The notes below the pieces were generated by a model. The model did no database searches. It was given only the letters and a program-made list of their open reading frames with translations, and was not told the origin of the DNA. This document shows positions 9,397-49,692 of a stretch of 49,778 nucleotides of DNA, in pieces. The stretch is taken from positions 1 to 49,778 of the forward strand of contig CAJQRK010000060.1 of assembly GCA_905612305.1 (NCBI GenBank), given 5' to 3'. The position numbers and the translations under genes are program-made. The DNA is from an uncultured Flavobacteriales bacterium. GTDB taxonomy: Bacteria > Bacteroidota > Bacteroidia > Flavobacteriales > BACL11. Each line of letters begins with the position of its first letter. The first letter of the stretch is position 1.

Positions 9397-10548
9397 ATGT
9401 TATTTAAGGAGATAGTAGGTAATCTACACACCAAAAAGCAACTGCTTGAAGGGGTTAAGAGCAATAGAGTTGGCCATGCTCAGTTGTTTTCAGGAAAAAG
9501 CGGTAGTGCCAAATTGACTTTAGCGCTTGCTTATGCTCAATTTTTGAATTGTGAAAATAGAACTGTAAATGATTCTTGCGACACTTGCTCTTCCTGTTTG
9601 AAATATAATAATTTATCTCACCCTGACCTACATCTTATTATTCCGGTTTTAAAGGTGAATAACATTAAAGATCCGGTCAGTGATCATTTTATTGGGCAGT
9701 GGAGAGACTTTATATATGGCAACCACTATAGCTCACTTAACGATTGGATTGATTTATTTGTCACAGAAAATAAAATAGGACAACAAGGAACAATTTATAA
9801 GCATGAGGCGGATAATATTCATAAAAAACTGAGTCTTAAAAATTATGAAGCCGACTATAGAGTTGTGCTGATTTGGATGCCAGAAAGAATGAATTTGGAA
9901 GCGTCAAATAAATTATTAAAATTGTTTGAAGAACCTCCTAAAGGCACTATTTTTATTTTGGTGACTGAAAATGCTAATCAATTATTACCAACCACTCTTT
10001 CTAGACTTCAAACTATTAAGGTTTCTGATTTTACTACTGAGGATATTGTTAATCATTTTGGAAAAAATATACTTTCGTTTGAAAAAGCAAAAGAACTCAA
10101 AAACTTAACAGATGCCAATTTGTGTAAAATTAGCAAAATCCTTAATGACAATGAAAACAATTTGGATTTATTCAATGATTTTTCTTCTTGGATGCGTTTA
10201 TCGTACAAGATGGATATACAAGGAATTTCAAAATGGATGGATCAGCTTGCAGCAAAAGGAAGAAAACAACAAAAATTATTTTTATCCTATGTTATAAAAA
10301 TGGTTCGAGAATGTCTTATTTATAATTTTGCAAGTAATAATCTACTTAAAATAAATGAAAATGAACTCGCTTTTTTAACTAAGTTTTCACCCTTTATACA
10401 TGAGGGAAATAGTATTTTGATTGTGGAGAAATTAGAAGAATCAATAAAAGCAATTAACCGAAATGCAAATGCAAAAATCTTATTTTTTGAGCTATCGCTT
10501 CAGATGGTGAAATTCTTAAAACTTAAGCGTAAGTTTGCAATAAAATAA
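9397..10548 (+). CDS. holB: DNA polymerase III subunit delta'
   Basis: This 383-aa clamp-loader subunit opens the sliding clamp during replication. The N-terminus shows the AAA+ fold with LFSGKSGSAKLTLALAYAQFL. The P-loop is degenerate, with Leu after the Lys, consistent with the non-hydrolysing delta' role. Four cysteines follow (Cys50, and DSCDTCSSC), forming the zinc module typical of delta'. ASNKLLKLFEEPPKGTIFILVT is the diagnostic block, and LPTTLSRLQTI carries the SRC-like sensor. The C-terminal collar domain (about 220-383) is divergent, as usual. It lies 5 nt before the ricT-like gene and leads the + strand run up to the CoA-transferase. Confidence 0.92.
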   Translation: MLFKEIVGNLHTKKQLLEGVKSNRVGHAQLFSGKSGSAKLTLALAYAQFLNCENRTVNDSCDTCSSCLKYNNLSHPDLHLIIPVLKVNNIKDPVSDHFIGQWRDFIYGNHYSSLNDWIDLFVTENKIGQQGTIYKHEADNIHKKLSLKNYEADYRVVLIWMPERMNLEASNKLLKLFEEPPKGTIFILVTENANQLLPTTLSRLQTIKVSDFTTEDIVNHFGKNILSFEKAKELKNLTDANLCKISKILNDNENNLDLFNDFSSWMRLSYKMDIQGISKWMDQLAAKGRKQQKLFLSYVIKMVRECLIYNFASNNLLKINENELAFLTKFSPFIHEGNSILIVEKLEESIKAINRNANAKILFFELSLQMVKFLKLKRKFAIK

Positions 10549-10553
10549 AACAA

Positions 10554-11735
10554 ATGGGTTGTAGTAACTGTAGTACATGTGAGGTTTCAGAAAAAAGAGG
10601 GTCGGCAAATAGCACTGTCTTTGATTGGCTATACCAGATTGATGCTCCAAAAAGCGAAAACAGTAATCTTATTGAAGTGCAGTTTAAACGGGACAGAAAA
10701 GATTTTTATATAAATACTGAAAACATTGATATTAGTAGTGGTGATTGGGTAGCTGTTCAAGGAGATAGATCAGGACATGACATTGGGAAAGTTACCATGA
10801 AAGGAGAGTTAGTCGCCTTACAAATAAAGCGTAAAAATAGAGATATTGAAAAGCACCCAATAAAGAAACTGTACCGAATAGCTTCTGAAAATGATTTGGA
10901 AAAATGGAAAAATACTGTTGATAATGAGGATGAAATTTTAGTAAAAGCAAAACGAATTATTGAGGATTATAAGCTTGAAATGAAATTAACAGATGTTGAG
11001 TTTCAAGGAGACAGCTCAAAAGCTACTTTTTATTATACTGCAGATAAGCGTATTGACTTCAGAGAACTTATAAGGGAATACTCAAAAAAATTTAGAATTA
11101 GAGTAGAAATGAAACAAATTGGCGCCCGACAAGAAGCGGCTAAAATAGGAGGAATAGGATCTTGCGGTAGAGAGCTTTGTTGTTCCACTTGGATGACTGA
11201 TTTTCCCTCAGTATCAACAAATGCCGCTCGCTATCAGCAACTTTCAATTAACCCACAAAAAATTTCAGGACAATGCGGAAGACTTAAGTGTTGCTTAAAT
11301 TTTGAATTGGACGGATATACTGAAGCTTTAGGAGAATTCCCTAGTACAAAAATAAAGTTAAAATCGAAAGAAGGGGTCGCAAAATTTGTAAAATTAGATG
11401 TGTTTAAAGGGGTGTTGTTTTATTTTAACTCCGACCTTCCTGGCGACTTATTGGAGCTGTCAATTGAGCAGGTAAATAAAATTATTGCACAAAATGAAAA
11501 AGGAGAAACACCAATAAATTTTAAGAATTATCCAGCCGAGCTAAAGCAAAAAGAAATTACCTTTCAAGATACAGTAGGTCAAGATAGTATTAATCGTTTT
11601 GACAAAAAGAAGAAATCAAAATTTAAAAGAAGTTCAAATATTAAATCTAAAAAAAGAACAGTTAATTGTCATTGTGGGAAAACAAAAAATCCAAATGGAA
11701 ATTGTGATGGATCTCATGCAAACAGAAACAATTAA
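10554..11735 (+). CDS. ricT: RicT/PSP1-domain iron-sulfur protein with C-terminal CDGSH-like motif
   Basis: This 393-aa protein matches the PSP1/RicT family. In Bacillus, RicT joins RicA and RicF in an Fe-S complex that affects mRNA maturation and development; the role in Bacteroidota is not established. A Cys-rich N-terminus (GCSNCSTCE) precedes the core. The core carries the family cysteine blocks IGSCGRELCCSTWM and GQCGRLKCCLNFE, near residues 200-250. A Lys-rich linker follows. The last 22 residues read CHCGKTKNPNGNCDGSH plus a short tail, with C372, C374, C384 and H388 in a C-x-C-x9-C-x3-H arrangement like the [2Fe-2S] ligands of CDGSH proteins, which usually have x8. It abuts gldH directly. 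The CDGSH fusion is seen in the sequence; cluster binding is inferred. Confidence 0.88.
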   Translation: MGCSNCSTCEVSEKRGSANSTVFDWLYQIDAPKSENSNLIEVQFKRDRKDFYINTENIDISSGDWVAVQGDRSGHDIGKVTMKGELVALQIKRKNRDIEKHPIKKLYRIASENDLEKWKNTVDNEDEILVKAKRIIEDYKLEMKLTDVEFQGDSSKATFYYTADKRIDFRELIREYSKKFRIRVEMKQIGARQEAAKIGGIGSCGRELCCSTWMTDFPSVSTNAARYQQLSINPQKISGQCGRLKCCLNFELDGYTEALGEFPSTKIKLKSKEGVAKFVKLDVFKGVLFYFNSDLPGDLLELSIEQVNKIIAQNEKGETPINFKNYPAELKQKEITFQDTVGQDSINRFDKKKKSKFKRSSNIKSKKRTVNCHCGKTKNPNGNCDGSHANRNN

Positions 11736-12203
11736 ATGAAGCGTAATTTATTTTTAATTAGTATAATACTTACATTTTTCTCTTGTAATTCAACTACTGT
11801 CTTTGACGGAGATAAAAGTTTTAAAAACCAAGAATGGAATACCGATAGTATTGTAAGGTTTGATTATCTTATTAATGATACAATTTCAAAACATAAACTT
11901 ATTTTAAAAATAAGACATAGTGTAGATTACGAATTTCAAAACTTATTTTTATTTATATATTCTGGATCATCAAAAGATACGGTTGAGTTATTAATAGCTG
12001 ATAATAGAGGCAAATGGCTAGGAAATGGTGTTGGAGATATTAGAGAGGTAGAAATAGTTATTGAAAATGAAAAAATATATAACAAAAAAGAGAATCAAAC
12101 CATTACGATTGAACAGGCCATGCGCTATGGATCAAACGAAAAAATAAACAACCTAAAACACATAGATGCTGTAGGATTAAATATTATTAAAGAAAATGAG
12201 TAG
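11736..12203 (+). CDS. gldH: Gliding motility lipoprotein GldH
   Basis: This 155-aa lipoprotein has a short signal peptide ending in the lipobox TFFSC (Cys17). The body matches GldH: FKNQEWNTDSIVRFDYLIND, then HSVDYEFQNLFLFIYSG, and the conserved GKWLGNGVGDIREVEI. GldH is required for Bacteroidota gliding and is associated with function of the type IX secretion system, located in the envelope. The order ricT-gldH-penicillin-binding protein is one I recognise from Flavobacteriia. It starts right after the ricT stop and overlaps the next start by 8 nt, suggesting translational coupling. It fits the T9SS cargo proteins seen elsewhere in the window. Confidence 0.87.
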   Translation: MKRNLFLISIILTFFSCNSTTVFDGDKSFKNQEWNTDSIVRFDYLINDTISKHKLILKIRHSVDYEFQNLFLFIYSGSSKDTVELLIADNRGKWLGNGVGDIREVEIVIENEKIYNKKENQTITIEQAMRYGSNEKINNLKHIDAVGLNIIKENE

Positions 12204-32249: not shown

Positions 32250-35200
32250 CTACCTAATGATAAAGATATTGCCTCTATCCTGATGTTTCCAACCTTCAAA
32301 ATCTTGGAAATACACTTCATAGATATAAGTTCCCATCGGCAAGTCATTTCCTGTTTTGAAATGTTTTCCATCCCAACCATTTGAATTTAAAAAACATTCC
32401 AAATCAGTAATATTTTCAGTAGCATATACCAAATTGGAAAAACGGTCGTAAACATTAAAATAGAAGGTTTCTCCTCTAACACCATGATGTGTTAAGCAAA
32501 ACACATCATTTACACCATCTAAATCGGGAGTAAATGAATTAGGTATATAAATCCAATAATCATCAGTAATTGATAAGATTTTAGAAGTAGTATCTATACA
32601 TCCCATAACATCTTTCACTATTAAAGTGACTTCATAAAAACCAACAGAATCTTTGTAAGTATGAAATGGATTTGCAGAATAATCAATGCTTGTATTATCG
32701 CCAAAATACCACTCCCAATTTACAATATCTCCTATTGATTTGTCTTCCATTTGTGTTGTAGTATAGAGGATAGTCATACTGTCAGGGCGCGCTTCAAAAT
32801 CAGCAACTGGCGCATTTAAAATAGTAACTTTTGCCTCCCCGCTTGTGACTCCATTTTCATTTGCATCACGGAAATAGTTCAATATATATAATCCGTCTTC
32901 TGTAGTAGGAATGATATAAGGATTATCGCTAGTTCTTATAGAATCTTGGATTACACCATTTAACGTATAAGTAAATACGTAAGGGGGAATACCTGTAAAA
33001 TCGACATATAACTCAGCATATTTACTATCATTAGAGCACAAGGTGTCGTTTCCATAAATCCCAGCAGTAATAGTTGTTAAATGTAAAATAATTGTATCAT
33101 TATATATGCCATAAAATGAGTTATTTATTGAGTTACCGTTAATAAATATATTACTGTCAGATGACCAAGAACCAAAACCAAGTAAAGGGTCAATATTTGG
33201 AGAAAGAGTTACAATCTTATCAATAAAACATGTTTCAGAATAAGGGAATACAGAAATAATATTTCCATTAATATCAATAGTTGTTGTTGTCCCAATTGGC
33301 CTAATATCATACACTATTGTTGGCTTTAAGTATAAATGTAATTTTATAGTATCACTGTTTGTGGCATAAAAAGAATCCACTTCATTAAAAGGATTCGGCA
33401 TTAACATTACACTATCGGACCCCCATTCTTTAAAGCCATATAAAGGATCAATATTAGGAGAAATATTAATAGTGTCTCCAAGCAGGTACATTTCTGTATG
33501 TGGAAAAGTGTTTACCCCAACACCATTGATATCAATTATTGAAGTAGTTGAAGCGGGAACAATATCATACACAATATTTCTACTTTCCCCAAAAAAGGCT
33601 CTTACTGTAACATCTCCCTGAACATCAATTACTAATGTGTCTTGAAAAGGATCATAGACGTAAACACCAGCTGGTAAGATTTCCCAATAAATTAAATTAC
33701 CACTTTTAACTTCAAACGGTAAAGCCACGCCTCCAAATCTGCTATAAATCTGCGGTGTATTTGTCTCATTAATTATATTACCATCACTCATCTCAATCTC
33801 TCCTATTCCAATAATTTCAACTGTTGCATTATACGGTCCTGATAGTGCGGGATAGCAAGGAATAAAACCATTATTCATGATACTGCATCTGGCTAAAATA
33901 AAATCTTTCATATCCTGAACGTTAGATTGCCAAGTTGCATAATTCCCTCCCCATTTAGCAATTTGTCCAGGCATTTCGGGTTCAATCACGGCAACCATAC
34001 TATCCAATATATCTATCATATTTACACAAGATAAATCACCAATAGCTAAATCTTGCCATCTATTTACATAGTCCGTAAAAAAATCATCATTTGTTAGAAA
34101 TTCATTCCATATTGGAATATGCCCTTGACCACCAGGATTATTTAAACTACTAGGATCACAAGGGTCAGCATTTACTGACATAGTGGGCACTCCAGTATAA
34201 TTTGTCCCATGATCAAAAGTATTATCCATATCCCAAAGCGTATATCTCCACTTTTTTTTATCTCCATTAGGATCCAACCCTCTCCACCATCCAGTATTAT
34301 AATTTAACCAATCTCCACAAACCACATAAGAGTTCAGTAAAAAGTAATCAATTAAACTACCGGTATTAAATTGACCTTTTGCAGTATTGTAATTAGTTTG
34401 ATTTGTCATTGGGTTTGTAGTAACAAAAGTTACAAAATCATCCCAATCATCTTCAGCCAGCATACCAGAAACTCCTCCTCCATACTTAGTCCATGTTCCT
34501 GCCCAGGTTTTTAAATATTGAATATACTCGGCACTTTCTCTATATATTTCATCTTGGTCGTAATAGTAATTTAAAAAATCAGAATCATCTACCTTTTCTC
34601 TCATTTCATAAACACCCCAATACTCTCCATTTAGGTACAAAATACAAGATGATGTAGATCTTTCATCTAATCTTAGGTCAGCCAGTTGAGATAGATGATG
34701 AACATATGCATCCCTTATGTGTGCCCCTGAATTACTATAGGAAAAAGGATAATTGTCATTTGCAGCAGCTTTAACAATTATTTTTTGAAATTTATCTCTA
34801 CTCTTTGTGTCAAACAATTTATCTTGTAAAGCGTAGTTATACCCAAATTGATCTCTCATAACGTAATCAAAGCCTCTTTGATCGTAAGCCCACGAATCAT
34901 TACCATGCTTATTATACTCTCCAGTACCTTTGTCAATTAAAATTCCGTTTTTATCAAACCATTCAATTGTTCCATCAGGCTCAGCCCCCCAGTTACCATC
35001 TAATAAATCAAATAGTCCCCCCTGCCCATTATCTCCAGAGATTGACAGAATTGGTATAGTGTGAGTATCGTTAATAAAAAAGGTGTGATAATCAATAAAA
35101 CTTGAAGGAATATTAGTTGTTGAGCTATAAGCTATTGCTTTTACAACTGTTGTAATTGCAATATTTATAGGCGTAGTATATATTGTTGAGGTATTATTTG

Positions 35201-35825
35201 GTTCATCTCCATTTGTTGTATAATATATTGTGATAGTTGGATCAGGAGAACTTAATGTTAGATTAATAGCGGCAGCGTTATAACCTCCTGCTTGAGAAAA
35301 AACGGGTGTCATTGCATATTCTTGCATTGCTCCTATATTATTTGTATTAGGCGTTCCAGCGGTAAAAACACTCCAAATAGGAGAGCCGTTAGTTTCTCTA
35401 CCTCTAGTGTGGGAATTTTGATTAGGCAATACTTGTATTGAGTCTTGGAAAATACCACCCGCATCAGAAAGCATGAAGACTTCATTGCCTTTCGTTTGCG
35501 TAATTTTAAAATTTGCATGAGCATTACCACCTACTAATTCATCTCTACCAGAACAGTAAACAATCGCCGTTCCATTTGCAGGCACTATAAAAGAAGATGG
35601 GATTATCCATTTTAAAGGATTTGAAACTTTGTCAGAAAGCGCCCATCCATTTAAATCAATAGCTGTAGCAGTTGTATTATAAAGTTCTACCCAATCTTCA
35701 TACTCACCATAATTATCAGTGTAAGTGTCATAATTGGCAGCAGAATATTCATTAATTATAACTTGCCCTTTTGCAGAAAACATAGCAATACAAGAAATTA
35801 ATAGTATAGAAATCAATTTATTCAT
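32250..35825 (-). CDS. Large secreted CotH-domain protein with lamin-tail, PKD and T9SS type B sorting domains
   Basis: This 1191-aa exported protein starts with a signal peptide (1-20). The domain order is: lamin-tail domain (about 21-130; VIINEYSAANYDTYTDNYGE); a chitobiase C-terminal-like domain (about 170-245; TIYYTTNGDEPNNTS); a CotH kinase-like region (about 250-660; NGEYWGVYEMREKVDD and WRYTLWDMDNTFDHG); two tandem ~80-aa repeats beginning VYDIVPASTT and VYDIRPIGTT (about 755-917); a PKD domain (about 1005-1088; NWEWYFGDNTS); and a type B T9SS sorting domain (about 1090-1191; IYIPNSFTPDLDGVNDVF to GTYIYEVYFQDFEGW). It is probably displayed on or released from the cell surface. CotH kinases phosphorylate spore-coat proteins in Bacillus; the target here is unknown. 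It stands alone with its own promoter. Confidence 0.88.
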   Translation of the reverse strand: MNKLISILLISCIAMFSAKGQVIINEYSAANYDTYTDNYGEYEDWVELYNTTATAIDLNGWALSDKVSNPLKWIIPSSFIVPANGTAIVYCSGRDELVGGNAHANFKITQTKGNEVFMLSDAGGIFQDSIQVLPNQNSHTRGRETNGSPIWSVFTAGTPNTNNIGAMQEYAMTPVFSQAGGYNAAAINLTLSSPDPTITIYYTTNGDEPNNTSTIYTTPINIAITTVVKAIAYSSTTNIPSSFIDYHTFFINDTHTIPILSISGDNGQGGLFDLLDGNWGAEPDGTIEWFDKNGILIDKGTGEYNKHGNDSWAYDQRGFDYVMRDQFGYNYALQDKLFDTKSRDKFQKIIVKAAANDNYPFSYSNSGAHIRDAYVHHLSQLADLRLDERSTSSCILYLNGEYWGVYEMREKVDDSDFLNYYYDQDEIYRESAEYIQYLKTWAGTWTKYGGGVSGMLAEDDWDDFVTFVTTNPMTNQTNYNTAKGQFNTGSLIDYFLLNSYVVCGDWLNYNTGWWRGLDPNGDKKKWRYTLWDMDNTFDHGTNYTGVPTMSVNADPCDPSSLNNPGGQGHIPIWNEFLTNDDFFTDYVNRWQDLAIGDLSCVNMIDILDSMVAVIEPEMPGQIAKWGGNYATWQSNVQDMKDFILARCSIMNNGFIPCYPALSGPYNATVEIIGIGEIEMSDGNIINETNTPQIYSRFGGVALPFEVKSGNLIYWEILPAGVYVYDPFQDTLVIDVQGDVTVRAFFGESRNIVYDIVPASTTSIIDINGVGVNTFPHTEMYLLGDTINISPNIDPLYGFKEWGSDSVMLMPNPFNEVDSFYATNSDTIKLHLYLKPTIVYDIRPIGTTTTIDINGNIISVFPYSETCFIDKIVTLSPNIDPLLGFGSWSSDSNIFINGNSINNSFYGIYNDTIILHLTTITAGIYGNDTLCSNDSKYAELYVDFTGIPPYVFTYTLNGVIQDSIRTSDNPYIIPTTEDGLYILNYFRDANENGVTSGEAKVTILNAPVADFEARPDSMTILYTTTQMEDKSIGDIVNWEWYFGDNTSIDYSANPFHTYKDSVGFYEVTLIVKDVMGCIDTTSKILSITDDYWIYIPNSFTPDLDGVNDVFCLTHHGVRGETFYFNVYDRFSNLVYATENITDLECFLNSNGWDGKHFKTGNDLPMGTYIYEVYFQDFEGWKHQDRGNIFIIR
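33075..33575 (-). repeat. Two tandem ~80-aa repeats inside the CotH-type protein
   Basis: Two adjacent segments encode related units. Each begins VYDI-P-(S/G)TT-IDING, continues with FPH/YTE or SET, then SPNIDPL-GF-(E/S)W-SDS, and ends in NSFYA/G followed by DTI-LHL. Unit 1 is roughly 33325-33575 and unit 2 roughly 33075-33320. They have diverged at the DNA level, so this is an old domain duplication rather than an unstable repeat. Confidence 0.75.
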
Positions 35826-45037: not shown

Positions 45038-46252
45038 TTAAGATAACATTTCTTGCGCCTTTTTAATGGCGCCTATGCAAATATCTACCTCTGTTTTGGT
45101 ATTGTATACCGCAAGTGAAATTCTTACTGTACCTGGGATATTATAACGCTTCATGATCGGCTGGGTACAATGGTGTCCTGTTCGGATTGCAATTCCCATT
45201 TTATCTACAATCGTTCCAATATCATAAGGATGAATCCCTTTAATATTGAAAGAAATTATTCCTGATTTATTTTTGGATGTTCCATACAGTCTAGCTCCTT
45301 CAATTTTTAATATTTCAGATGTTGCGTATTGCAAAAGGCCATCCTCATATTTCGTAATGTTTTTAACGCCTAATTCTCTAATGAAATCAATGGAAGATTT
45401 AAAAGCAATTACTCCTCCAATATTTGGAGTCCCAGCTTCAAATTTATAGGGTAAAGACGCATAAGTAGTTTTTTCAAAACTTACTTCTTTTATCATTTCC
45501 CCTCCCCCTTGATAAGGTGGTAATGTGTTTAATATTTCCTCTTTTCCGTACAACACACCTACTCCTGTTGGACCGTACATTTTATGTGCTGAAAAGCAAT
45601 AAAAGTCAGCATCCAATTCTTGCATATTTAAACAAATATGAGAAGCGGCTTGCGCTCCATCAATTAGTACTTTTGCGCCAATCAAATGAGATTTTTCAAT
45701 AATTTCTTTAATAGGATTTATCGTTCCTAATGTATTAGACACATGAGAAACCGCTACTAGCTTTGTATTTTCAGAAAGAAGATTATTAAAATTTTCCATA
45801 TCTAAACTACCATTATCCAAAAGCGGAATTACTTTTAAAGTAGACCCGCTTATCTCACAGCACATTTGCCACGGTACAATGTTGGAATGGTGTTCCAGCT
45901 CTGAAATGATAATTTCATCTCCCTTTTTCAAAAGAGAACGAAAGCCATTCGCAACTAAATTAATTGAGTCAGTTGTCCCTTTGGTAAAGATGATTTCATG
46001 ATTATGCTTGGCGCTAATAAACTGTTGAATAGTTTTTCTTGTTGCCTCAAATTTATCAGTAGCCAAACCACTTAAAAAATGAACCCCCCTGTGCACATTA
46101 GCATTTTCTTCTTGGTAATAATTACTTACCGCATCAATAACTGATTGAGGTTTCTGAGTAGTAGCTCCATTGTCAAAATATACTAAGTCCTTATCATTTA
46201 CTTTGCGTTTAAGAATAGGGAATTGCTCGCGTATTTTGTTTACATCAAACAT
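45038..46252 (-). CDS. sufS: Cysteine desulfurase SufS
   Basis: SufS is a PLP enzyme that takes sulfur from cysteine as a persulfide. The 404-aa protein has the PLP Lys in YCFSAHKMYGPTGVGVLYG and the catalytic Cys in IRTGHHCTQPIMKR, the short-loop form typical of type II desulfurases. YFDNGATTQKPQSVIDAV and SELEHHSNIVPWQ are other family blocks. It shares one base with the end of sufD, so it is translationally coupled. SufE, encoded next, stimulates it. Confidence 0.96.
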   Translation of the reverse strand: MFDVNKIREQFPILKRKVNDKDLVYFDNGATTQKPQSVIDAVSNYYQEENANVHRGVHFLSGLATDKFEATRKTIQQFISAKHNHEIIFTKGTTDSINLVANGFRSLLKKGDEIIISELEHHSNIVPWQMCCEISGSTLKVIPLLDNGSLDMENFNNLLSENTKLVAVSHVSNTLGTINPIKEIIEKSHLIGAKVLIDGAQAASHICLNMQELDADFYCFSAHKMYGPTGVGVLYGKEEILNTLPPYQGGGEMIKEVSFEKTTYASLPYKFEAGTPNIGGVIAFKSSIDFIRELGVKNITKYEDGLLQYATSEILKIEGARLYGTSKNKSGIISFNIKGIHPYDIGTIVDKMGIAIRTGHHCTQPIMKRYNIPGTVRISLAVYNTKTEVDICIGAIKKAQEMLS

Positions 46253-47472
46253 TATACGCTAAAATCTAGATCAACATTTAGTTTTTTAGCTAATAATTTT
46301 TGTGCTAATAGTTTTACTTCCAATATGCTAATATTTTCAATTGCTTCAGATGCAAATGCATAGGTTAAAACGGCTTTTGCTTCAGTAATTCCAATCCCTC
46401 TACTTCTCATGTAAAAAAGCGCATCTTCATCTAATTGACCAATAGTACATCCATGACTACACTTTACATCATCTGCATAAATTTCTAGTTGAGGCTTACT
46501 GTCAATAGTAGAATTTTCACTTAAAAGTAAATTATTGTTGGACTGAAAAGCATCAATTTTCTGAGCATCTTGTCTTACCATAATTTTACCATTAAAAACC
46601 CCCTTGGAATTTCCTAAATATACTCCTTTGTACATTTCATTACTTGTACAATGCGGCTGTTTATGATCCACAAAAGTATGGTTGTCTGCTAGCTGATTTT
46701 TATCTAAAATAGAAACACCATTCATATTACTTTCGCAATTACTTCCATTTTGCTCAAAATTCAGATTATTACGCGTGAAACTTCCTCCAAAAATTAAGGT
46801 ATTTATATTACAAGTTGAATCTTCTTTTTGAAAGATATTCATAGTATCAATTAGCTTTGATTTTTCTGTATTATTCTGTATTTTATTATATTCTACATTT
46901 GTGTTTTTACCACAGTCTATCTGAGTAAAGTGATTAACAAAAGAAGTTGAACTTCCTAAGTTTTGTATTTTTTCCACAAACTTTACCTCAGCATTATCCT
47001 TAATAATAATTTGGTTTCTGTATTGATTAAAGCTATTTTCAGTAGTTGTAAAAAATAGAATTTCTATTACTCCATCTACTATTGTATTGCTATCTACTTT
47101 TATGGTAAATCCATTATTGGCTAATGCAGAATTTAATTGCAAAAAAGGATCAGAAGTAGAGCATTCAAAATCTGAAAAATCTGAAAAAGTTATTCCTTCA
47201 ATTTTAGGAGTAGAAATCAATTTTCCATCAGAAAAAACTATTTTATTTTTAAAACCTAAAGAATGATTTGAGATATCTAGATGAGAGAGAGGGCTCCCAT
47301 TTTTTTCAATAGAATAATCTTCTGAAATCAACTTTTTTAAAGAAGTATATTTCCACTCTTCATCTTGAATTGTTGGAAATCCTTTTTCAAAAAAAGAATT
47401 AAGTAATTGGTTTTTATTAGAAGATATTTTTATGCCTTCTGAATAAGATTTTAAATTTTCAATTAAGCTCAC
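46252..47472 (-). CDS. sufD: SufD, Fe-S scaffold complex subunit
   Basis: SufD joins SufB and SufC in the SufBC2D scaffold that builds Fe-S clusters. The 406-aa protein has the SufB/SufD core beta-helix, with DVKCSHGCTIGQLDEDALFY and the C-terminal RSRGIGITEAKAVLTYAFASE. The first half is divergent, as in other SufD proteins. QDAQKIDAFQSNNNLLLS is the typical segment before the core. It overlaps sufC by 4 nt and sufS by 1 nt. Confidence 0.95.
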   Translation of the reverse strand: MSLIENLKSYSEGIKISSNKNQLLNSFFEKGFPTIQDEEWKYTSLKKLISEDYSIEKNGSPLSHLDISNHSLGFKNKIVFSDGKLISTPKIEGITFSDFSDFECSTSDPFLQLNSALANNGFTIKVDSNTIVDGVIEILFFTTTENSFNQYRNQIIIKDNAEVKFVEKIQNLGSSTSFVNHFTQIDCGKNTNVEYNKIQNNTEKSKLIDTMNIFQKEDSTCNINTLIFGGSFTRNNLNFEQNGSNCESNMNGVSILDKNQLADNHTFVDHKQPHCTSNEMYKGVYLGNSKGVFNGKIMVRQDAQKIDAFQSNNNLLLSENSTIDSKPQLEIYADDVKCSHGCTIGQLDEDALFYMRSRGIGITEAKAVLTYAFASEAIENISILEVKLLAQKLLAKKLNVDLDFSV

Positions 47473-48224
47473 TGGTTATCTGCTTCTTTAGTTATCCAAT
47501 CGTATCCCTTTTGATCTAGTTCGTGCGCTAGTTCTTTGCCTCCAGATTTAATAATTCTTCCATTATATAATACGTGTACAAAATCAGGAACTATATAGTC
47601 TAATAATCTTTGGTAATGCGTAATGACAACAGTTGCATTATCCTTGCATTTTAGTTTGTTTACTCCATTTGCAACAATTCTAAGGGCGTCAATATCTAGT
47701 CCAGAATCAGTTTCATCCAAAATAGATAATCTTGGCTCTAACATTGCCATCTGGAAAATTTCATTTCTTTTCTTTTCTCCTCCAGAAAAACCCTCATTCA
47801 TATTTCTGGATAAGTATCCATTTTTAATATTCAATAGTTCCATTTTTTCTCGCATCATTTTCAACAAATCTTTGGTGGGCATTGGTTTCATTCCCTTTGC
47901 TTTTCTTTGTTCTGTAATTGATGTTTTAATAAAGTTTGAAACTGAGATTCCCGGAATTTCAACAGGATATTGAAAAGAAAGAAAAACGCCTTTATGTGCC
48001 CTTTCTTCAGGAGCTAATTCCAAAAGGTCTTCTCCCTCAAAATCAATACTTCCTCCCACTACCTCATATTCATCTTTTCCAGCAATAACAGCAGCCAATG
48101 TACTTTTGCCAGAGCCATTTGGACCCATAATAGCATGCACTTCTCCTGTATTTACCTCTAGGTTTATTCCGTTTAGGATTTGATTATCCTCAATTCCTGC
48201 TTTTAAATCTTTTATTTTTAACAT
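47469..48224 (-). CDS. sufC: SufC ATPase
   Basis: SufC is the ABC-type ATPase that drives conformational change in the SufBC2D scaffold. The 251-aa protein has Walker A GPNGSGKST, the family-specific signature GFSGGEKKRNEIFQM and Walker B LSILDETDSGLD, followed by VVITHYQRLLDYI. It is soluble and lacks transporter partners. It overlaps sufD by 4 nt and follows sufB by 10 nt. Confidence 0.97.
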   Translation of the reverse strand: MLKIKDLKAGIEDNQILNGINLEVNTGEVHAIMGPNGSGKSTLAAVIAGKDEYEVVGGSIDFEGEDLLELAPEERAHKGVFLSFQYPVEIPGISVSNFIKTSITEQRKAKGMKPMPTKDLLKMMREKMELLNIKNGYLSRNMNEGFSGGEKKRNEIFQMAMLEPRLSILDETDSGLDIDALRIVANGVNKLKCKDNATVVITHYQRLLDYIVPDFVHVLYNGRIIKSGGKELAHELDQKGYDWITKEADNQ

Positions 48225-48234
48225 TTTTTTATTT

Positions 48235-49692
48235 TTAACCTACTGATCCTTCAAGGCTGATTTCTAATAATTTTTGTGCTTCTACTGCAAATTCCATTGG
48301 TAATTGATTCAGCACGTCTTTACAATAACCATTTACAATTAAGGCAATTGCTTGTTCTGTCCCTATTCCTCTTTGATTGCAATAAAATAGTTGATCTTCT
48401 CCTATTTTAGAAGTGGTTGCTTCATGCTCTATTTTGGAAGAATTGTTTTTTACTTCAATATAAGGGAATGTATGCGAGCCACATTTATCTCCCATTAATA
48501 GGGAGTCACATTGAGAGAAGTTTCTTGAGTTTGTTGCCCCCTTTGCAATTCGAACCAATCCCCTGTAATTACCATTACTTTTGCCTGCTGATATTCCTTT
48601 TGCAATAATGGTACTCTTGGTGTTTTTACCCAAATGAATCATTTTTGTACCCGTATCCGCTTGTTGAAAATTGTTGGTTACCGCTACCGAGAAAAATTCT
48701 CCGATAGAGTTATCGCCTTTTAAAATACAAGAAGGATATTTCCAAGTTACTGCAGAACCAGTTTCAACTTGCGTCCAAGAAATTTTTGCATTTTTATAAC
48801 AAATCCCTCTTTTGGTCACAAAATTAAATACCCCGCCAACACCTTCAGTATTTCCAGGATACCAATTTTGAACAGTTGAATATTTAATGTCGGCATCATC
48901 CAAAGCAATTAATTCTACTACTGCAGCATGTAATTGATTTTCATCTCGCATTGGGGCAGTACATCCTTCCAAATAACTTACTTGACTGCCTTCATCTGCA
49001 ATTAATAGTGTTCTTTCAAACTGTCCTGTTCCCGCTTCGTTTATTCTGAAATAAGTAGAAAGTTCCATAGGGCATTTTATTCCTTTTGGAATGTAGCAAA
49101 AAGAACCATCAGAAAATACTGCAGAATTTAGTGCTGAGAAAAAGTTGTCTCTATGAGGGACTACAGTCCCTAAATATTTTTTTACTAATTCTGGGTGTTC
49201 TTTAATAGCATCAGATATTGAGCAGAAAATAATCCCTAAGTCACCTAATTTTTCTTTGAAAGATGTGGCAACTGAAACAGAATCCATTACAATGTCAACT
49301 GCTACATTTGCTAACTTATTTTGCTCATCAATGGAAATCCCAAGTTTATCAAACATCTTTTTCATTTCTGGATCCAAATCATCCAAACTGTCTAATACGG
49401 GTTTTTGTTTTGGTGCAGAATAATAAATTACATCTTGATAGTTAGGCTTATCATATGTGACATTTGCCCATTCTGGCTCTTCCATTTCCAGCCAAGCCTT
49501 ATAAGCTGCTAATCGGTATTCCAACATCCATTCGGGTTCGTTTTTTTTTGCTGAAATAATACGAACTACATCCTCACTTAGTCCTTTGGGAATAGTATCC
49601 GACTCAATGTCAGTAGTAAACCCGTATTTGTATTCGGTTGAAGTTACTTTTTCTAATAATTCTTCCTCCGTTTGCCTCTTCTTTTCGCTCAT
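48235..49692 (-). CDS. sufB: SufB, Fe-S scaffold complex subunit
   Basis: SufB is the main scaffold subunit on which Fe-S clusters form. The 485-aa protein shows the conserved SSVWYIPKGI-like segment as [40 protein letters not shown], the cysteine-bearing [20 protein letters not shown], and [22 protein letters not shown] near the end. Its length is normal. It begins 12 nt after the stop of the partial sufA/iscA-type gene, so the operon starts outside the window. Confidence 0.97.

Follow-up and report, generated by a model that had tools for sequence, protein, structure and literature searches.

A short CDGSH-like cysteine/histidine module at the C-terminus of RicT homologues from one Flavobacteriales sub-lineage

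The window analysed here, i.e. the whole stretch of 49,778 nucleotides, encodes on its forward strand a 393-residue homologue of RicT, preceded by a holB-like gene (9397-10548) and followed by gldH. The product of positions 10554-11735 largely exceeded the cut-off of the NCBIfam family RicT_YaaT_fam (NF041131; 256.4 vs 70 bits), and its residues 104-189 exceeded the Pfam cut-off for PSP1 (99.3 vs 27 bits). The features of the locus are as follows.

10554..11735, + strand: ricT homologue, 393 aa (RicT_YaaT_fam 256 bits; PSP1 1.6e-28)
10560..10580, + strand: N-terminal cysteines C3, C6 and C9 (MGCSNCSTC), found in 28/28 family RicT covering the region
10863..11120, + strand: PSP1 domain (PF04468), profile match
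11163..11183, + strand: core cysteine block 1, CGRELCC (C204, C209, C210), equivalent to B. subtilis C161, C166, C167; 29/29 family RicT
11274..11294, + strand: core cysteine block 2, CGRLKCC (C241, C246, C247), equivalent to B. subtilis C198, C203, C204; 29/29 family RicT
11604..11666, + strand: Lys-rich linker, fast evolving (6/23 residues differing, plus indels, vs 0/17 in the motif, G000 vs G049)
11667..11717, + strand: mini-CDGSH module of x9 spacing, CHCGKTKNPNGNCDGSH, residues 372-388; ligand candidates C372, C374, C384 and H388
11736..12203, + strand: gldH, the next gene, a conserved neighbour outside the module (PF14109, E=3.6e-25; TIGR03511)

RicT was detected in 33 of the 52 genomes of the window's family. 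The initial annotation had credited the protein with cysteine blocks of its own in the core, and both were indeed present in every family RicT compared (29/29), none of the six core cysteines known from the B. subtilis protein being missing. Among these, the residues that hold cluster 1 in B. subtilis (C161, C166, C198 and C203; PMC6751060) correspond to C204, C209, C241 and C246 and were likewise kept in 29/29. One genome, G016, contained two RicT genes (L006 and G016:C63:6969-7226), in one of which the second core block reads GQCSKLKCC and has lost its usual Gly-Arg. A PDB search with RicT returned no usable relative, and single-sequence structure prediction reached a mean pLDDT of only 35.6, too low to inform on the fold.

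Downstream, gldH begins at position 11736 without any gap, as had been noticed, and this adjacency had been taken to link the protein to gliding and type IX secretion. For the tail, the positional argument fails: gldH was the next gene after ricT at all ten tail-less loci tested in the family, order and class, so the ricT-gldH adjacency is ancient and tells nothing of the tail. Elsewhere on the same contig, about 33 kb from ricT, sufB (48235-49692), a sufS-like class-V aminotransferase gene (45038-46252) and two further ORFs form a single run on the reverse strand (45038-49692). An ORF of 1191 aa, also on the reverse strand (32250-35825), had no NCBIfam match at E<=1e-10.

The RicT reading frame ends in ...KKRTVNCHCGKTKNPNGNCDGSHANRNN followed by its stop codon, and the last 22 residues (CHCGKTKNPNGNCDGSHANRNN) contain, as the initial annotation had described, C-H-C-GKTKNPNGN-C-D-G-S-H with the spacing C-x-C-x9-C-x3-H (11667-11717). 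The union of RicT core, Lys-rich linker and CDGSH-like tail in a single polypeptide is a genuine fusion that recurs in 8 of the 14 genomes of the genus (G000, which is the window's genome, G040, G041, G043, G044, G049, G050 and G051). An assembly artefact was rejected, as these eight genomes are independent. The remaining six RicT of the genus, as well as those read from other genera of the family, had Lys/Arg-rich ends. The initial annotation had proposed to map the taxonomic spread of PSP1 proteins with such tails: they occurred within the genus and at none of 90 RicT loci of phylum genomes (a few of whose reading frames were recovered only in part), where RicT had a basic tail or none; a phylum-wide trait was rejected on this count (0/90).

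The four ligand candidates were kept in every tailed relative, so the loss of ligands that would have discredited the motif was not seen. Over its 17 codons, G000 differed from the other tailed genomes by no amino acid, apart from two changes vs G051, both at non-ligand positions, while the core and the linker differed at 16% and 26% of their amino acids, respectively. Synonymous changes affected 2-5 of the 17 codons, compared with 41-44% in the core. The probability of zero changes in the motif was about 0.05 at the core rate and about 0.006 at the linker rate. Taken alone, this conservation is modest evidence for selection; the argument is strengthened because identical residues were kept in unrelated contexts.

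These contexts were revealed by a search of 398 genomes of the order with a 51-nt pattern for C-x-C-x9-C-D-G-x-H, the reversed pattern serving as control. The pattern occurred at 37 places in 33 genomes and the control at two. About 32 of the 37 places had one consensus in common, C-x-C-G-[KNQR]-T-x3-x-G-[NYS]-C-D-G-S-H. No variation was seen across 23 module sequences at C, C, G, T, G, C, D, G and H, and almost none at S, so that conservation extends to positions of the CDGSH consensus other than the ligands. The tail is not peculiar to RicT: the module was found (i) in free-standing ORFs of about 28-46 aa, (ii) at the N-terminus of YceI-domain proteins and (iii) as the RicT tail. The YceI-borne copies precede a hydrophobic segment and are therefore probably cytosolic; that of G048 (CQCGKTKNPNGNCDGSH) is nearly identical to the RicT tail, both having 17 residues. 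Three genomes (G004, G021 and G023) contained the module with no detected RicT, and the module is therefore not dependent on RicT. Its distribution seems to be limited to certain small-genome families of the order, and with a stricter x9 pattern (Gly after Cys 2 and before Cys 3) the window was the sole match in 395 phylum genomes.

Contexts (i) and (ii) were often divergent from a gene for an HxlR-type regulator, and pirin genes adjoined the YceI gene; profile searches supported these identities (HxlR 9e-26, YceI 2.5e-25, pirin 8e-31). The RicT tail, in contrast, belongs to the conserved ricT-gldH pair. The arrangement with an N-terminal module on YceI, a divergent HxlR gene and often a pirin gene next to it was seen at L040, L045, L051, L060, L065, L066 and L068. 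Intergenic regions between HxlR and module genes contained repeated GTTAC/GTAAC half-sites and a TAnnTTTG-like box, and the repeats lying between HxlR and YceI genes resemble a putative operator array. At L064 (1500-1551, + strand), a TAA codon interrupts the module in frame (CKCG*TKNPNGNCDGSH) ahead of YceI, with a possible YceI restart downstream; either the module is broken in this genome or the sequence contains an error. HxlR and pirin families are tied to electrophile and redox responses. In the papers searched, CDGSH domains were fused to DUF1271/Fer4_19, glutamate synthase, Rieske_2 and ferritin-like partners; none was found that joins CDGSH to YceI, or to RicT as a fusion.

The published CDGSH motif comprises 17 residues, hydrophobic-CXCXX(S/T)XXXP-hydrophobic-CDG(S/T/A)H, i.e. 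with eight residues between Cys 2 and Cys 3, and its cluster module is said to need an N-strand and a P motif within a beta-sandwich dimer (PMC3174974). The RicT tail follows the 3Cys-1His order with C-D-G-(S/T/A)-H. Its score against Pfam zf-CDGSH (PF09360) was 12.9 bits, below the cut-off of 29.5, and this profile matched 4 of the 23 module sequences at E<1 (best 2.5e-4); a profile of the module matched no NEET structure in the PDB. As far as sequence allows to judge, proteins of 28-46 aa leave no room for an N-strand and a P motif, nor does the stretch after the Lys linker of RicT. The CDGSH-type tail put forward initially is not a recognised CDGSH domain: its score is low, its spacing is x9, and the N-strand, P motif and hydrophobic positions are missing. 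It may plausibly act like a CDGSH loop, but it is not a demonstrated CISD domain. For comparison, ordinary CDGSH domains are found in two proteins of the window's genome, with three domain matches between them.

A metal site of some kind is the favoured reading because the ligands were invariant in all eight tailed RicT while linker and core diverged. This site may be structural: a 3Cys-1His zinc knuckle would dock RicT on the ribosome, on RNA or on a protein and have no redox role, like the SEC-C motif of SecA. A very short module closing a basic linker at the chain end, with no Fe-S scaffold, would suit such a role, and such small proteins (28-46 aa) are more usual for zinc knuckles than for Fe-S folds. 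Ribosomal proteins were, moreover, pulled down by B. subtilis YaaT (PMC13230545), which fits a docking function. However, the invariant T, D, G and S occupy CDGSH second-shell positions and are not needed for zinc, and no SEC-C or other zinc family was detected on the tail at E values up to 10, the weak zf-CDGSH match aside. The HxlR/YceI/pirin setting also suggests redox. We therefore regard a zinc tail as unlikely, though a serious contender.

With respect to the origin of the tail, a Lys-rich linker and a 17-residue x9 module took the place of the family's usual basic RicT C-terminus in one sub-lineage. The tree of RicT cores required two changes for the tail: RicT of G000 paired with that of tail-less G039 (support 95/95 in the larger tree and 82/93 in the smaller one), apart from the seven other tailed genomes, and a constraint uniting the tailed RicT in one group was rejected only marginally (AU p=0.04). 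The tail-less congeners keep the basic end (...RxxRRxxFKKN...) common to other genera, which is ancestral, and therefore look never-tailed rather than secondarily tail-less. Two fusions, or a single fusion spread by recombination, would both fit these sequence data. The gene junction changed as well: gldH starts 4-23 bases inside the end of ricT in most tail-less relatives, directly after the ricT stop in the window and a few bases downstream in the other tailed genomes. Such a shift fits a replaced ricT 3' end.

The same observations could also reflect a near-neutral, mobile 3' end, in which a copy of a micro-gene replaced the end of ricT and conservation records nothing other than recency. 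Synonymous differences, fewer in the motif than in the core, would agree with a recent arrival, and the scatter of tailed genomes over more than one clade, together with the ancestral end of the tail-less ones, suggests transfer or repeated fusion. Yet the adjoining linker shows 26% divergence and indels, against a motif in which no ligand was lost, and the same residues were kept across the families of the order in other contexts. Recency as the sole explanation thus seems improbable to us.

The comparison with the 4Fe-4S complex of Bacillus, drawn in the initial annotation, holds for the core cysteines and breaks down for the partners. A search for RicA and RicF (Com_YlbF, PF06133) gave no match in any of the 14 genomes of the genus; its controls were B. 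subtilis and Lactococcus, both with matches, and Bacteroides, with none. The ligands of cluster 1 in B. subtilis are C161/C166/C198/C203 of RicT, while cluster 2 is held by RicT C167, RicF C134 and C146, and RicA C141, so that RicF and RicA donate exactly three cysteines, from their C-terminal ends (PMC6751060). RNase Y was detected in 11/14 genus genomes, the three misses being incomplete genomes. Family-wide, 26 genomes had both RicT and RNase Y, 16 neither, seven RicT only and three RNase Y only (Fisher p=2e-5, a value that ignores phylogeny and includes some single absences in incomplete genomes); among 14 control genomes, the 6 with RicT were also the 6 with RNase Y. Fifteen genomes of the family genera g3, g7 and g15 had neither, which suggests a joint loss of this RNA-processing pair in small genomes. 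Because it co-occurs with RNase Y and RicA/RicF are absent, RicT of the genus is probably an RNase Y partner that acts without RicA/RicF.

The N-terminus may account for this independence. RicT of the class (L097-L186) have Cys-rich heads with 4 or more cysteines in the first 60 residues, and three are found in the window's family; B. subtilis RicT, in its six-cysteine description, is without such a head. The three conserved N-terminal cysteines equal the number of ligands given by the missing RicA and RicF. By analogy, C3/C6/C9 and C210 may build cluster 2 of RicT in place of the partner ligands, and a cluster supplied in this way would explain how RicT does without partners. That the tail itself, with no site of its own, lends ligands to the second [4Fe-4S] cluster in lieu of the C-terminal cysteine tails of RicF/RicA has the C-terminal origin of those B. 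subtilis ligands (PMC6751060) and the absence of both proteins in its favour, but it is most improbable, given that six congeners and all other family RicT read are tail-less yet need ligands, that C3/C6/C9 are always present and that the module exists in genomes without detected RicT (G004, G021 and G023).

As a whole, the observations are best explained, albeit tentatively and with more doubt than confidence, by a partner-free RicT that supplies its own cluster 2 and has acquired a labile metal site, which tunes the work of RNase Y. The module would form a compact metal site (C372, C374, C384 and H388), most likely a labile [2Fe-2S] cluster or iron, on a RicT that would partner RNase Y without RicA/RicF. 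Cluster 1 would be held by C204/C209/C241/C246, and cluster 2 completed by the protein's own C3/C6/C9 plus C210. Iron or oxidant stress would cause the tail metal to be loaded or lost, and metal occupancy of the flexible basic arm could alter the engagement of RNA, ribosomes or RNase Y by RicT. The outcome would be a condition-sensitive input to RNA processing. A redox setting is suggested because the module lies beside HxlR, YceI and pirin genes. The Fe-S reading is weakened because of the x9 spacing, the shifted lid proline, the missing scaffold, a Pfam score far below cut-off and the lack of a NEET match in the PDB, and a functional need for the tail is weakened because six congeners do without it. 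A bolder proposal goes further: a minimal, scaffold-free CDGSH-type Fe-S module of about 17 residues would exist in small-genome Flavobacteriales-like bacteria as micro-proteins and plug-in ends and, on a self-sufficient RicT with all ligands of both Ric clusters, would yield an iron/redox controller of RNase Y with three sites on one chain. We consider this distinctly unlikely.

What signal the Ric iron-sulfur clusters sense has yet to be settled for B. subtilis. On sequence grounds, a RicT with a Cys/His tail module suggests that RNA processing may be switched in response to metal or redox state, and a partner-less RicT with three N-terminal cysteines, to which some species add a Cys/His site, offers a one-protein system to test cluster 2 and its control. 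Should the mini-CDGSH module bind iron, few natural Fe-S units would be as small, and it would put to the test the amount of scaffold that a CDGSH cluster requires.

Among known systems, the RicT tail resembles CISD/NEET proteins (PF09360) in its C-x-C-x2-T ... C-D-G-S-H sequence and in the 3Cys-1His order. It differs from them by one extra residue (x9 instead of x8), by the lack of a hydrophobic residue before the first Cys, by a displaced lid proline without the Pro-hydrophobic pair and by the apparent absence of N-strand, P motif and beta-sandwich scaffold. The zinc-binding SEC-C tail of SecA is similar in that a short Cys-rich motif ends a flexible C-terminus. In SEC-C the fourth ligand directly follows the third Cys, whereas in the RicT tail the third Cys and the His that follows it are four residues apart and no adjacent Cys-[His/Cys] pair is formed. 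Finally, RicT of the genus is similar to B. subtilis RicT/YaaT in its PSP1 core, in six core cysteines at the same spacing (CGRxxCC ... CGRLxCC) and in its co-occurrence with RNase Y. Unlike the B. subtilis protein, it has no RicA/RicF and hence no ternary complex, and it carries a C-x2-C-x2-C head at its N-terminus and, in some genomes, the mini-CDGSH tail at its C-terminus.
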